Made by a program: the position numbers and the translations under genes. This document shows, one piece after another, positions 47,636 to 52,107 of a DNA stretch of 64,000 nt. The notes beneath the pieces are model-generated. The model was not told the origin of the DNA. It made no database searches and was given only the letters and a program-made list of their open reading frames with translations. Every line of letters begins with the position of its first letter. The first letter of the stretch is position 1. This DNA is from Methanoregulaceae archaeon PtaB.Bin056 (GTDB lineage Archaea; Halobacteriota; Methanomicrobia; Methanomicrobiales; Methanospirillaceae): contig MVQD01000037.1 in the NCBI GenBank assembly GCA_002067095.1, positions 1-64,000 of the forward strand, given 5' to 3'.

Positions 47636-48130
47636 ATGGATTCTGTGAAACTGAAGGTCCAGGAACGCGCTTTTCCAAGCAGGGGACGTGCCAGGTTGCA
47701 CGAGAAATATCTCAGGCAACTGGGTATCAACGAAGGCGACGAGGTAGAAGTCTCAATCGAAGGGGCGGAAAAACCCGGCATCGTCGCAGTGTTTGCCGAC
47801 ACCCTGGTCGAGGAGGGGCATATCCGCCTCAGCCCCCAGGATATCGCGGCCATCGGAGCTGCCCCGGGGTCGACGGTGACGGTCAGAAAGAGGCCCCCCC
47901 TGGTGGACAGGGTGAAGAAAGGGGCGGAAGGTACCGCGGAGAAGATCAGAGAGGGGGCCGGCCAGGCCAGAGAGAAGATCAAGGGGGGAGCACCGCAGGC
48001 CTCGGAGAGAGTCAGGGAAGGGGCCGGCAAGGCTGCTGACAAGGTCAAGGAAGGAGCGGCTGCTGCAAAGGAATCCATCGAAAAGGGCACAGAGTCGGTG
48101 AAGAAGAGACTGCAGGACAAGGACCTGTGA
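47636..48130 (+). CDS. Double-psi-barrel protein with six 11-residue amphipathic repeats
   Basis: The 164-residue protein has an N-terminal domain (2-88) resembling the CDC48/VAT-N double-psi barrel (GRARLHEKYLRQLGINEGDEV ... GHIRLSPQDIAAIGAAPGSTVTV). Residues 93-158 are six unbroken 11-mers of the form (V/I)(K/R)xGAxxAxE(K/R), a pattern shared with LEA group 3 and synuclein/apolipoprotein helices that bind membranes. No signal peptide. A role in membrane association or stress protection is inferred. Confidence 0.82.
   Translation: MDSVKLKVQERAFPSRGRARLHEKYLRQLGINEGDEVEVSIEGAEKPGIVAVFADTLVEEGHIRLSPQDIAAIGAAPGSTVTVRKRPPLVDRVKKGAEGTAEKIREGAGQAREKIKGGAPQASERVREGAGKAADKVKEGAAAAKESIEKGTESVKKRLQDKDL
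47912..48109 (+). repeat. Six tandem 33-bp units coding 11-mer repeats
   Basis: Codons 93-158 of the double-psi-barrel gene give six exact-length 11-residue units with the phase kept throughout. The units differ in DNA sequence, so the repeat is old and held by selection on the protein, not recent slippage. Confidence 0.75.
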
Positions 48131-48146: not shown

Positions 48147-48530
48147 ATGACAGATATCTGGGTGACCTTCAATCAATCCTTCCCCATCCTCCTGATCATA
48201 CTCGGGCTGGTCATCTTTTACTTCATCATCCGCGAGATCCGGATCATGTACACAAAGACCAGGATTGCAAAGCTGGACCTCGAGAAGGAGAAACTCCAGC
48301 TGATCAAGGCAGATCTGGAGCAGAAAGGCCACCCGTTCTTTCGCGTCTCTCCTGCAAAGCAGGAGGAGCTCCGGAGCCTTGACGAGGAGAACACAATGCT
48401 TGAGACCGATATATTTGCCCAGCAGAGCGCGGTGGAGAAGCGGATCCAGAGGCTCGAGAGCAAAGTCAAGCTGACCAAGCTCGACCACATGATCGAGAAG
48501 ATCAAAAAAGAAGAGGACCGCCTGGGGTGA
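48147..48530 (+). CDS. Membrane-anchored coiled-coil protein
   Basis: The 127-residue protein has one N-terminal membrane helix (about 12-30, FPILLIILGLVIFYFIIREI) and a long Lys/Glu-rich coiled coil from residue 40 to the end (IAKLDLEKEKLQLIKADLEQ; AVEKRIQRLESKVKL). It lies 16 nt after the double-psi-barrel gene and before three related small genes, so it may anchor a complex at the membrane. Confidence 0.75.
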   Translation: MTDIWVTFNQSFPILLIILGLVIFYFIIREIRIMYTKTRIAKLDLEKEKLQLIKADLEQKGHPFFRVSPAKQEELRSLDEENTMLETDIFAQQSAVEKRIQRLESKVKLTKLDHMIEKIKKEEDRLG

Positions 48531-48536
48531 TCATGC

Positions 48537-48845
48537 ATGACAGTCTATGAAACACCTGATGCGACTGAGGGGAAGCATTCCTTCCTCGACGGAATAAAGG
48601 AGATCCCTGGCTATATCGACCAGAGACTCCCGACCCTGGACAAGGACTTTGACCTTTACTTCGAAGAGAACCTGCCAGCAATCATCGAAGAGTGGGGCCT
48701 TCTCAGCAGCGTCCATCTCACCCAGCTCGAACGGCGTATCACACGGATCCACCAGCAGGTCGATTACCTGGAGAAGGAACGGGCCACTCTCGAGGAGAGG
48801 GCCGCCAGGCTTGATAGGGAACTCAAAATTCTGGAGGGATTATGA
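48537..48845 (+). CDS. Small coiled-coil protein with IEEW motif (family member 1)
   Basis: The 102-residue soluble protein has a helix YFEENLPAIIEEWGLL (about 41-56) followed by a coiled coil with heptads (LERRITRIHQQVDYLEKERATLEERAARLDRELKIL). The EEW helix recurs in the next two proteins. The stop overlaps the next gene by 4 nt. Confidence 0.72.
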   Translation: MTVYETPDATEGKHSFLDGIKEIPGYIDQRLPTLDKDFDLYFEENLPAIIEEWGLLSSVHLTQLERRITRIHQQVDYLEKERATLEERAARLDRELKILEGL

Positions 48846-49063
48846 TGCGATCAGACTACATGGAGCGTTATATCGACCGCCGGATGAAGTATCTCATCGA
48901 TGAATGGAACCTCGCAACGAGAAATGACCTCGGCGACCTTTATACGAGGCTCCATGTGATCGAGGATGAAGCGAGGAGATGTGCCGGATTTGAAGCAACC
49001 GCCTCAGCAAAGATGACCGAACTCGAGAAGCGCCTCCTGCACCTGAAAGGAGTGATGAAATGA
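48842..49063 (+). CDS. Small coiled-coil protein with IDEW motif (family member 2)
   Basis: The 73-residue protein opens with ERYIDRRMKYLIDEWNLATR (IDEW at 19-22) and ends in a coiled coil (MTELEKRLLHLKGVM). It is the shortest of three tandem relatives, without a membrane segment. ATGA overlaps join it to both neighbours. Confidence 0.72.
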   Translation: MMRSDYMERYIDRRMKYLIDEWNLATRNDLGDLYTRLHVIEDEARRCAGFEATASAKMTELEKRLLHLKGVMK

Positions 49064-49398
49064 CCGTGGTCGAAGCGCTCCTGATCCTCCTGCTCATACT
49101 CCTGATAGCGTTCATCATATACTACTACTTCCGCGGTTCATCCGGCAAGCTTGAGATATCCCGGCCGATGGAGAGCAGGATTGATGAATACCTTGACCGG
49201 CGTTTCGATGCGATGATTGACGAATGGTCACTTGTCCGGAGGCCACAGGCGCTGAAGTTCAGGGACGAGAAGCTCGCCGACATCTCCCGGGAAGAGAAGA
49301 GGATGGCCTCCCTGGTCGGGTTCGAGAAAGAGTTCGGGGAGAAGATGGCTTCCCTGGAGGAGCGGCTTGAGACTCTGGAAAAGCAGGTCATCAGGTAG
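49060..49398 (+). CDS. Membrane-anchored coiled-coil protein with IDEW motif (family member 3)
   Basis: The 112-residue protein has an N-terminal membrane helix (ALLILLLILLIAFIIYYYF, about 6-24). EYLDRRFDAMIDEWSLVRR (IDEW at 53-56) and a C-terminal coiled coil (MASLEERLETLEKQVI) follow. The middle is the same helix as in members 1 and 2, so this one could tether the others to the membrane. Confidence 0.74.
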   Translation: MTVVEALLILLLILLIAFIIYYYFRGSSGKLEISRPMESRIDEYLDRRFDAMIDEWSLVRRPQALKFRDEKLADISREEKRMASLVGFEKEFGEKMASLEERLETLEKQVIR

Positions 49399-49459
49399 CA
49401 GGCGACCCGGGAGTGAGAAGGGGGACCTGGTATCCCGGCTGAAGAAGGACATTCCACGG

Positions 49460-49678
49460 ATGAGGAACCAGGGGGAGCCCCCTGAGAAGGATCCGGCTCA
49501 TTTCTCCGGGTTCCTGTGCGATCTCTGCAACAGCGCGTTCGCATACCATGAACTCAGGCAGTGTATCCTGTGCGGCAGGTGGGCATGTCAGTCCTGCTGG
49601 ACACCGGAGTTTTATGTATGCAACTCATGCAACGGGATGATCACGCTGCATACCCTTGGCGATAAGAGCACGAAGTAA
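49460..49678 (+). CDS. Small eight-cysteine zinc-finger protein
   Basis: The 72-residue protein has four C-x-x-C pairs (CDLC, CILC, CQSC, CNSC) with interleaved spacing and a His/Trp-containing middle, like a cross-brace treble-clef (FYVE/B-box type) binding two zinc ions. It is the last gene of the coiled-coil cluster. An upstream TTG at 49367 with a good GGAGG would add 31 residues and overlap the preceding gene. Confidence 0.68.
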   Translation: MRNQGEPPEKDPAHFSGFLCDLCNSAFAYHELRQCILCGRWACQSCWTPEFYVCNSCNGMITLHTLGDKSTK

Positions 49679-49797: not shown

Positions 49798-50391
49798 ATG
49801 GCGGATGCGCCATACATCTTTATGCCTGACACGGTAGTTGTGGTCACCCCCTGCGACAGGGGATGGGGTGCGCTCCTTGTTCTTGGACTCCTCTCGATCC
49901 TCTTCGGGGTCCTCATGATACTCTTTCCCGATCTCACGGCGATTGCGGTCGTGACGCTCATCGGGGTGCTCGTCATCATCCTCGGCGCCATCATGCTCCT
50001 CTCGTCACTCTTTTTACCTGCCGGGGCAGCGCGGTCAACTCTCCTCCTCTTCGGAGGCCTGGCAGGGCTTCTGATCGGAGTGGGGATAATCGTCTACCCC
50101 ATCCTTGCCGGTGCCGTGATCACCGAGATCATCGGGGCGGTGATCTTTGTCATCGGGATGATGCAGATCCTCTTTGGCCTGGTATTTGAAAAGGACAGAA
50201 GGAGGGGCCTGTACTTCATCGCAGGGATACTCTCCGCAATATTTGCGCTGCTGATCGTCTTTTATCCCTTCATCGGCAGCATTGTCCTCTTTGGGTATCT
50301 CCTCGCCATCTACTTCCTCCTCCTGGGGATTATGATGGTGATCGCCGGGTACCTCGGCCACTCTCTCTGCACCAGGTATGCAGAGTCCTGA
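49798..50391 (+). CDS. DUF308 (HdeD-like) membrane protein
   Basis: The 197-residue protein has six hydrophobic helices in three pairs, each with the DUF308 pattern (LLVLGLLSILFGVLMILFP; GLAGLLIGVGIIVYP; GILSAIFALLIVFYP). Relatives include HdeD, linked to acid stress in enterobacteria, but archaeal roles are unknown. It has its own terminator before it and converges on the minus-strand gene at 50429. Confidence 0.87.
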   Translation: MADAPYIFMPDTVVVVTPCDRGWGALLVLGLLSILFGVLMILFPDLTAIAVVTLIGVLVIILGAIMLLSSLFLPAGAARSTLLLFGGLAGLLIGVGIIVYPILAGAVITEIIGAVIFVIGMMQILFGLVFEKDRRRGLYFIAGILSAIFALLIVFYPFIGSIVLFGYLLAIYFLLLGIMMVIAGYLGHSLCTRYAES

Positions 50392-50428: not shown

Positions 50429-51055
50429 TTATCCCACCTTTTTGCGGGCGAGCTTCCCTGACAGCACCAGGATAACGATTCCCGCCGCTCCCACCACCCC
50501 AAGGATGAATACGTCCTCAATACTCTTTATGTGCTGAGCAATGAAGATCACGAACGCCGCAGCGATCACAAAACCGACCGTGGTAAAGACCGCCGCAAGC
50601 CACCGGTTCCACCCCAGTATCCATGCAATGATGGGTGTCCCGTAGAGACCTATCCCTGGTATCCAGGCAATGAGGGTGCACGAGACGGCCCCGTACTTCT
50701 GGATCGCGGGATATTTCTCCATCTTCTTTCCAACCTTCGCAATCCAGCGTGAGACCCGTTCTGACGTGAGTGCCAGGCTCTCGCATACTTCCAGGATTGC
50801 CAGCACGACGCCGAAAGAAAACGATGCCATGACTGCGAGTATTGTGACAGGAGAAAGCCCAAGCGGCCCTCCAAGCGGGGGTGCGGCCGCCTGGAGGATG
50901 AACGTGGAGGCGAGAAAACTGAGGATGGTTGCTGCCGGTATTTCGAGCACCATGCCCAATGTGACCGGGACTGCAATCACGAAGAGAAAGAAGAAGATCA
51001 GCGCCTTTGAGAGTTCTTTTAGGACCCTGAGTGTCGAAAGGAACCTGGCGCGCAT
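50429..51055 (-). CDS. Putative small multidrug export protein (PF06695 type)
   Basis: The 208-residue integral membrane protein has about five helices, with the family-like segment AWIPGIGLYGTPIIAWILGW and VFTTVGFVIAAAFVIF. The COG2426/PF06695 group is named for drug export on thin evidence, so transport is inferred only. The start MRARFLSTLRVLKEL fits a positive-inside N-terminus. Confidence 0.8.
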   Translation of the reverse strand: MRARFLSTLRVLKELSKALIFFFLFVIAVPVTLGMVLEIPAATILSFLASTFILQAAAPPLGGPLGLSPVTILAVMASFSFGVVLAILEVCESLALTSERVSRWIAKVGKKMEKYPAIQKYGAVSCTLIAWIPGIGLYGTPIIAWILGWNRWLAAVFTTVGFVIAAAFVIFIAQHIKSIEDVFILGVVGAAGIVILVLSGKLARKKVG

Positions 51056-51195: not shown

Positions 51196-52107
51196 TCAGG
51201 GACTCGGACTCTTTCGCACAGCGCGCATCTTCTCCCGCAATCTCCACCCGCTCGAGGCCATGGCGATCCCGAGGAGGAACACCAGTATCCCGAAGGTCTC
51301 CATGAGCAGTTCAAGCATCGCATCGGGCACGATCAGTATGCCTGCGGCCAGGATAAACGAGAAGACGCCAATTCCCATCCGGCGGAAAAAACCTTCCGGC
51401 ACCTCCCTTCTTCCCCGAGCCACGCGGGAGAATGACATATAGGCACTCCCAAACGCCCAGGACGCAAGGATCAAAAGAAGGAGCTGGATCCACACATCCA
51501 GCGGAAAGTCAAATGTCACGATGCCAAGAACCACGAGGGAGATGCCGATAAAAAAACTCCCCGGGGAGACCAGGGCTCTCTGGTGCAGGCTGATGCCTTT
51601 GCGGGAAATGACGATCCCAAGCGCGATGATCCCGAGGGGGAACAAAAGAGAGACGATCCCCCCGAAACTACCCAATGGATTTCCAAAGACCCATATCCCT
51701 ATGAGTGCAAGGGCACACCCTGCAAGGAAAAGCACCTGCCAGGTCCGCTTCTGCTCCTTTAATTCCATGTCAACGTACCGGCCGGGACCGCGCCTTGCGG
51801 CGGCAACCAGCGTGATGAAGGTATCGGCGATCATCAGGAGGAGGGGCGCATCGTCCAGGAGGTGGAGAAGAGGATGGGCTTTCGGGTCATAACGGTCAAG
51901 GTGCACCTTCCACTCCGCAACAGTCTCGTGCGCATGGTACTGGCCTTTCCTGTAACTTGCGATGGTCCCTGGAGTAGGGATGTTGATCAAAGACCGCTCC
52001 CACCCTGCATCCAGCGGCTCTGTGACCGATTCTTTTGGAACAGCAACCTGCCAGATCCCCTGGTGCAAGGGGCCCAGGAGATCGTCAAGTCTGGTCACGT
52101 CACTCAC
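51196..52107 (-). CDS. Hypothetical membrane protein
   Basis: The 303-residue protein has a soluble N-terminal 110 residues (LDDLLGPLHQGIWQVAVPKES ... HETVAEWKVHLDRYDPKAH) and then about six membrane helices in a Gly/Leu/Ile-rich C-terminal part. I do not recognise the family. It ends 140 nt from the divergent-side multidrug-type gene and has its own upstream region. Confidence 0.7.
   Translation of the reverse strand: MSDVTRLDDLLGPLHQGIWQVAVPKESVTEPLDAGWERSLINIPTPGTIASYRKGQYHAHETVAEWKVHLDRYDPKAHPLLHLLDDAPLLLMIADTFITLVAAARRGPGRYVDMELKEQKRTWQVLFLAGCALALIGIWVFGNPLGSFGGIVSLLFPLGIIALGIVISRKGISLHQRALVSPGSFFIGISLVVLGIVTFDFPLDVWIQLLLLILASWAFGSAYMSFSRVARGRREVPEGFFRRMGIGVFSFILAAGILIVPDAMLELLMETFGILVFLLGIAMASSGWRLREKMRAVRKSPSP

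Follow-up and report, generated by a model that had tools for sequence, protein, structure and literature searches.

FtsB, FtsL and DivIC are small single-pass coiled-coil proteins that act as a hetero-complex. The locus described here would encode a comparable small anchored coiled-coil set; there is no sequence relation between the two, and the weak matches to DivIC do not extend beyond the coiled coil. PspA-, phasin- and apolipoprotein-like coats are likewise helical and charged and give weak model matches to proteins of the locus, but they lack its EWxL helix, barrel and zinc finger. The barrel (residues 1-86 of the protein termed VN) has the same fold as the N-domain of Cdc48/VCP/VAT (PF02359; PDB 7dg9, 7dg7, 7dbo). 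Unlike Cdc48, however, VN stands alone, without the CDC48_2 domain or AAA/ATPase modules, and carries an amphipathic tail instead. The zinc finger (ZF) is a full member of the Pfam family Prok-RING_2 (PF14445), which covers the finger only and not the other proteins of the locus (VN, A, B, C and D). The name of this family implies a role involving ubiquitin; nothing found here supports it.

Burroughs, Iyer and Aravind reportedly surveyed prokaryotic RING fingers in 2011 and probably defined Prok-RING_2. No description of the operon was found in the literature search; the 2011 survey, which lay outside that search, may mention the neighbourhood. Since the zinc finger already has a Pfam name and the survey may cover its surroundings, the locus is not rated as a categorically new system. 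It is a new arrangement of known types of parts, together with one new paralogous family.

Composition and order of the six-gene unit

The window, that is, the whole 64,000-nucleotide stretch of DNA analysed (Methanoregulaceae archaeon PtaB.Bin056, contig MVQD01000037.1), contains the conserved unit VN-A-B-C-D-ZF (Table 1). The sequence-only reading of this DNA had proposed a set of three genes, B, C and D, with an order to be looked for in other Methanomicrobiales. These three do belong together, but the unit also holds VN, A and ZF, giving six genes. The order is conserved in relatives: all six genes keep it in 20 of 20 wide loci, beyond which the genes differ between genera, and A, B, C and D are in fixed order in all 31 loci inspected, with VN upstream and ZF downstream in almost all of them.

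Table 1. Positions of the genes and motifs of the unit in the window, and of VN genes with a TrkA_C domain in other loci
Feature	Coordinates	Strand	Remarks
VN	47636..48130	+	164 aa; start set by alignment with relatives
A	48147..48530	+	N-terminal membrane helix and long charged helical region; no family; unrelated to B/C/D
B, soluble paralogue	48537..48845	+	102 aa; LPTMDKxLDxYF...IIEEWGL helix; coiled coil 55-101
IEEWGL motif of B	48684..48701	+	residues 50-55; E52 and W53 invariant in 28 relatives
C, soluble paralogue	48842..49063	+	73 aa; YxxYxDRRM...LIDEWxL helix; coiled coil 23-73
IDEWNL motif of C	48896..48913	+	residues 19-24; Y6, Y10, D12, R14 and M15 invariant; W22 at least 90%
D, membrane-anchored paralogue	49060..49398	+	112 aa; ESRxDEYLDRRF...IDEWSL; coiled coil 84-112
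IDEWSL motif of D	49216..49233	+	residues 53-58; E55 and L58 at least 90%
ZF, eight-cysteine binuclear zinc finger (Prok-RING_2, PF14445)	49367..49678	+	likely start; Cys ligands 49517-49630
VN with TrkA_C	L106:6334-7068, L105:6663-7472, L111:6518-7327, L024:82-588, L026:21-587

The 4-nt overlaps claimed earlier between B and C (ATGA, 48842-48845) and between C and D (ATGA, 49060-49063) are real in the window and are kept in 25 and 27 of the 31 loci, respectively. Conservation of these ATGA overlaps is consistent with coupled translation. The A and B genes do not overlap in the window. The likely start codon of ZF is a TTG within the 3' end of D, giving an overlap of 32 nt (49367-49398); this start was placed according to the MxLWKxR start common to its relatives.

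Gene A has no described family in Pfam, NCBIfam, PADLOC or PHROGs. It was considered as a homologue of B, C and D and rejected: its profile-profile match with D covers the membrane helix only, and that with B only 17 columns. Adjoining the unit in the window are a DUF308 membrane gene (49798-50391), a small membrane gene (50429-51055) and a second membrane gene of DUF308-like appearance (51196-52107). DUF308/HdeD-like and DedA-like membrane genes also recur near several operons of other genera.

Paralogy and helices of B, C and D

The three small proteins carry their motif exactly where the first reading had placed it (IEEW at residues 50-53 of B, IDEW at 19-22 of C and at 53-56 of D), and among the 374 open reading frames of at least 60 aa in the window the pattern [ILVM]I[DE]EWxL occurs in these three only. 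BLASTP E-values were 3e-9 between C and D, 3e-5 between B and C, and 9e-5 between B and D. The real alignment score was reached by none of 2000 shuffles for C-D and for B-C, and by one of 2000 for B-D; profile-profile comparison gave E-values of 3e-16 (B-C), 3e-14 (C-D) and 1e-12 (B-D). In a tree of 87 sequences, based on a short alignment of 74 columns and showing a long branch between B and D, each of B, C and D formed its own clade (support 100/98, 95/86 and 97/84). By these comparisons B, C and D are true paralogues, as had been proposed, and the separate clades place the triplication before the split of the sampled lineages and the spread of the three proteins across three Methanomicrobiales families. 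That the three are instead independent proteins, alike only as coiled coils are, is scarcely credible. Generic coiled-coil models do match them weakly, but the homology extends beyond the coiled coil and is centred on the non-heptad helix YxDRR...EWxL, in which every family keeps some residues invariant, and both the profile-profile E-values and the clean clades contradict independence.

No family in Pfam or NCBIfam covers B, C or D, PADLOC and PHROGs gave no match, and PDB profile searches with C and D as queries returned generic coiled coils only. The earlier statement that no known family bears this signature is thereby upheld, and the three proteins did not scatter over separate, unrelated families. 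Judged by sequence, B, C and D form a new paralogous small-protein family. Gas-vesicle, phasin, troponin, XhlA, FlaC and ESCRT-like identities were considered and rejected; such matches are weak and extend over helical repeats only.

Segment-wise tests detected significant heptads in B55-101 (p<0.001), C23-73 (p=0.0003) and D84-112 (p<0.001), whereas whole-helix FFT periodicity was not significant. The heptad coiled coil that had been described as following the EW motif is thus present in these segments but not in D58-83, where the test was not significant; compared with B and C, D has 4 inserted residues there. Nor was the test significant in the EW helix of any of the three proteins, which suggests that the EW segment is an element separate from the coiled coil, possibly the specific contact.

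Structure prediction was carried out on single chains. The AF2 model of D (mean pLDDT 76.8) consists of a transmembrane helix at residues 3-27, a short linker of low confidence, and a continuous helix of 74 residues (38-111). Prediction agrees with the earlier assignment of a membrane helix to D and none to B or C; A, with a membrane helix at about residues 13-31, had been missed as a second membrane-anchored member of the unit. In both A and D, on average no Lys or Arg precedes the membrane helix and 3 to 4 follow it. According to the positive-inside rule, the two are predicted to lie with the N-terminus outside (N-out/C-in for A) and the coiled coils in the cytosol.

The VN barrel and the zinc finger

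VN residues 1-86 form a predicted double-psi beta-barrel of the Cdc48/VCP N-terminal (Nn) type, with pLDDT of about 80-92 in the AF2 model. Foldseek matched this barrel to archaeal and eukaryotic Cdc48 N-domains with a probability of 1.00 and an rmsd of about 2 A or less. CDC48_N was matched by all 21 VN relatives (best 3.5e-9); the VN of the window itself scores 33.6 bits, below the Pfam gathering cut-off of 35.1. Residues 87-164 make up a Lys/Ala/Glu/Gly-rich amphipathic tail, modelled as a helix of low confidence and similar to apolipoprotein-type repeats. Identification of VN as a Cdc48 AAA ATPase was rejected, as the protein has 164 aa and no AAA modules. In three genera VN carries a C-terminal TrkA_C (RCK_C) domain. 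TrkA_C is elsewhere a ligand-sensing regulatory domain, and its presence on VN is possibly a ligand-sensing extension.

VN is present in two copies in one near-complete genome of the Methanoregula-like genus g5 (G376), from which A, C, D and PF14445 are absent. One of its VN genes (L141:6078-6683) is located directly downstream of a cdc48 AAA ATPase gene (L141:3456-5885, C76) on the same strand; the second lies elsewhere (L142:1623-2315). This adjacency is a single case, 1 genome out of 108 in the family, and serves as a lead only. Irregular VN copies were also observed: a decayed extra copy with four in-frame stops, apart from an intact operon (G395:C16:3324-3545, L144), and a frame with one internal TAG (G494:C391:2574-3053), which may be a pseudogene or may have been misassembled.

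ZF matches PF14445 with E=9.9e-26 and 90.1 bits against a cut-off of 22.4. The predicted zinc ligands, Cx2Cx11Cx2Cx4Cx2Cx7Cx2C, have cross-brace spacing and are all Cys in 29 of 30 ZF copies. A FYVE-type PI3P-binding finger was rejected: LRQCxxCGRW stands in place of R(R/K)HHCR, and the FYVE match has E=0.13.

Inheritance and candidate function

Among 61 related genomes, 31 were found to encode D, and one or two more EW matches almost always stand immediately upstream of it. The closest named records, at up to 94% identity for D, are from Methanolinea sp., and the window belongs to a Methanolinea-like genome. Across 394 genomes of the phylum, the 32 that encode D coincide exactly with the 32 that have a strong PF14445 match. 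Eight further PF14445 matches in this sample are weak (E 1e-7 to 1e-4) and lie outside Methanomicrobiales, in genomes without D (G114, G124, G170, G175, G189, G236, G366, f8; G258, f9); they may be other small zinc fingers of distant families. Within the 150 genomes of Methanomicrobiales, A and C are present in the same 43, and VN is strong in those 43 and in G376. In the whole family of 108 genomes, VN is found in 74 and A in 72, the exceptions with VN but not A being G376 and the fragmented, 67%-complete G511. Separate contigs of five genomes (G027, G515, G527, G528, G532) hold the VN-A pair in two to three copies, either because the unit has been duplicated or because the bins are mixed.

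The distribution of the unit over an RpoB tree of 29 genomes cannot be explained with fewer than six changes between presence and absence. Three operons of family f2 are nested next to those of family f1 in the operon tree; a fourth f2 operon is not. This pattern suggests that the unit has been lost as a whole and transferred at least once.

The preferred reading, which we hold to be about as likely as not, is a coiled-coil scaffold built by the products of the six genes: obligate, hetero-oligomeric and tethered to the membrane, with VN and ZF serving as its adaptors. It draws on the homology and clades of B, C and D, fixed gene order, co-inheritance and conserved overlaps, and also on the significant heptads, the model of D, the topology of A and D, and the VN barrel. 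B, C and D would each be a specialised descendant of a single ancestral helix module (Y-x-D-R-R ... I-D/E-E-W-x-L, then coiled coil) and would most likely line up next to one another in a hetero-oligomeric rod at the cytosolic side of the cell membrane. D and, separately, A may act as N-out single-pass anchors of this rod, the tail of VN probably binds membrane or protein, and VN and ZF may dock on the rod and recruit a client or partner. Paralogy, fixed order, block co-inheritance, predicted anchors and helices, barrel fold and zinc-ligand pattern are results of computation; we infer that the subunits associate in a hetero-complex, as well as the stoichiometry of that complex, the docking of VN and ZF on it and a link to Cdc48. 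Against the scaffold it can be said that coiled-coil proteins of one operon need not bind one another and that the EW helix is without significant heptads. As partner pathway, protein handling of the Cdc48 type at the membrane is the most likely candidate, a suggestion that is possible but doubtful: adjacency to cdc48 was seen in that one genome, the functions of double-psi barrels are varied, and the operon encodes no ATPase, peptidase, ubiquitin-like protein or E2.

Other explanations account for parts of the same evidence. VN tails resemble apolipoprotein, ApoLp-III and Senescence models, Phasin is weakly matched by 11 of 28 B proteins (best 2e-5), and there is an apparent recurrence of DUF308/HdeD-like and DedA-like genes; these would also fit a membrane-stress or lipid-surface coat, in which the VN tail and coiled-coil rods line and protect the membrane in the manner of PspA, phasin or LEA proteins. 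Such helical matches, however, are typical of low-complexity helices compared with any coiled-coil model, and a coat leaves the three fixed paralogues, the barrel and the eight-Cys finger unexplained; we consider it unlikely. The changes on the RpoB tree, the nesting of f2 operons among f1 and the differing flanks between genera could indicate a mobile module, accessory or defensive, that genomes acquire and lose as a whole. This is improbable, in that PADLOC and PHROGs gave no match, searches of viral contigs with the C profile and of plasmids with ZF returned no relative, no integrase or defence gene recurs beside the unit, and flanks are often stable within genera.

A RING-named finger and a Cdc48-N-type barrel in one operon bring to mind a ubiquitin-like conjugation device, with Prok-RING_2 as a membrane-recruited E3 and VN passing clients to Cdc48. 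Compared with the classical C3HC4 RING, however, ZF is C4C4 and has no His. Classical E3 RINGs carry CPxC, and at this place ZF has CNSC/CKAC. No Ubl, E1 or E2 is found in the operon neighbourhood, and a search for E2 (PF00179) gave none in 19 operon-bearing genomes, although the positive control of that search was silent too. With all-Cys ligands and no E2 found by a search with a silent control, a ubiquitin-ligase role for ZF is unsupported rather than excluded, and the conjugation device as a whole is very improbable.

The membrane-tethered scaffold, if real, leads to a further and fairly unlikely possibility: an undescribed archaeal machine in which a three-paralogue rod with its own anchor recruits to the membrane, with no need of ubiquitin, either unfolding of the Cdc48 class or a VN gated by a signal, as TrkA_C in some genera might allow. 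The unit is present in several near-complete or complete genomes and absent from close congeners, making a comparison of organisms with and without it possible, and a concrete set of subunits is now defined for co-expression. A Pfam zinc-finger family without a function, Prok-RING_2, is placed in a strict six-gene context. If true, such a machine would be a ubiquitin-free counterpart of membrane-protein quality-control adaptors, and, if the link to Cdc48 holds, it would show how archaea aim unfoldases at membrane proteins without ubiquitin.
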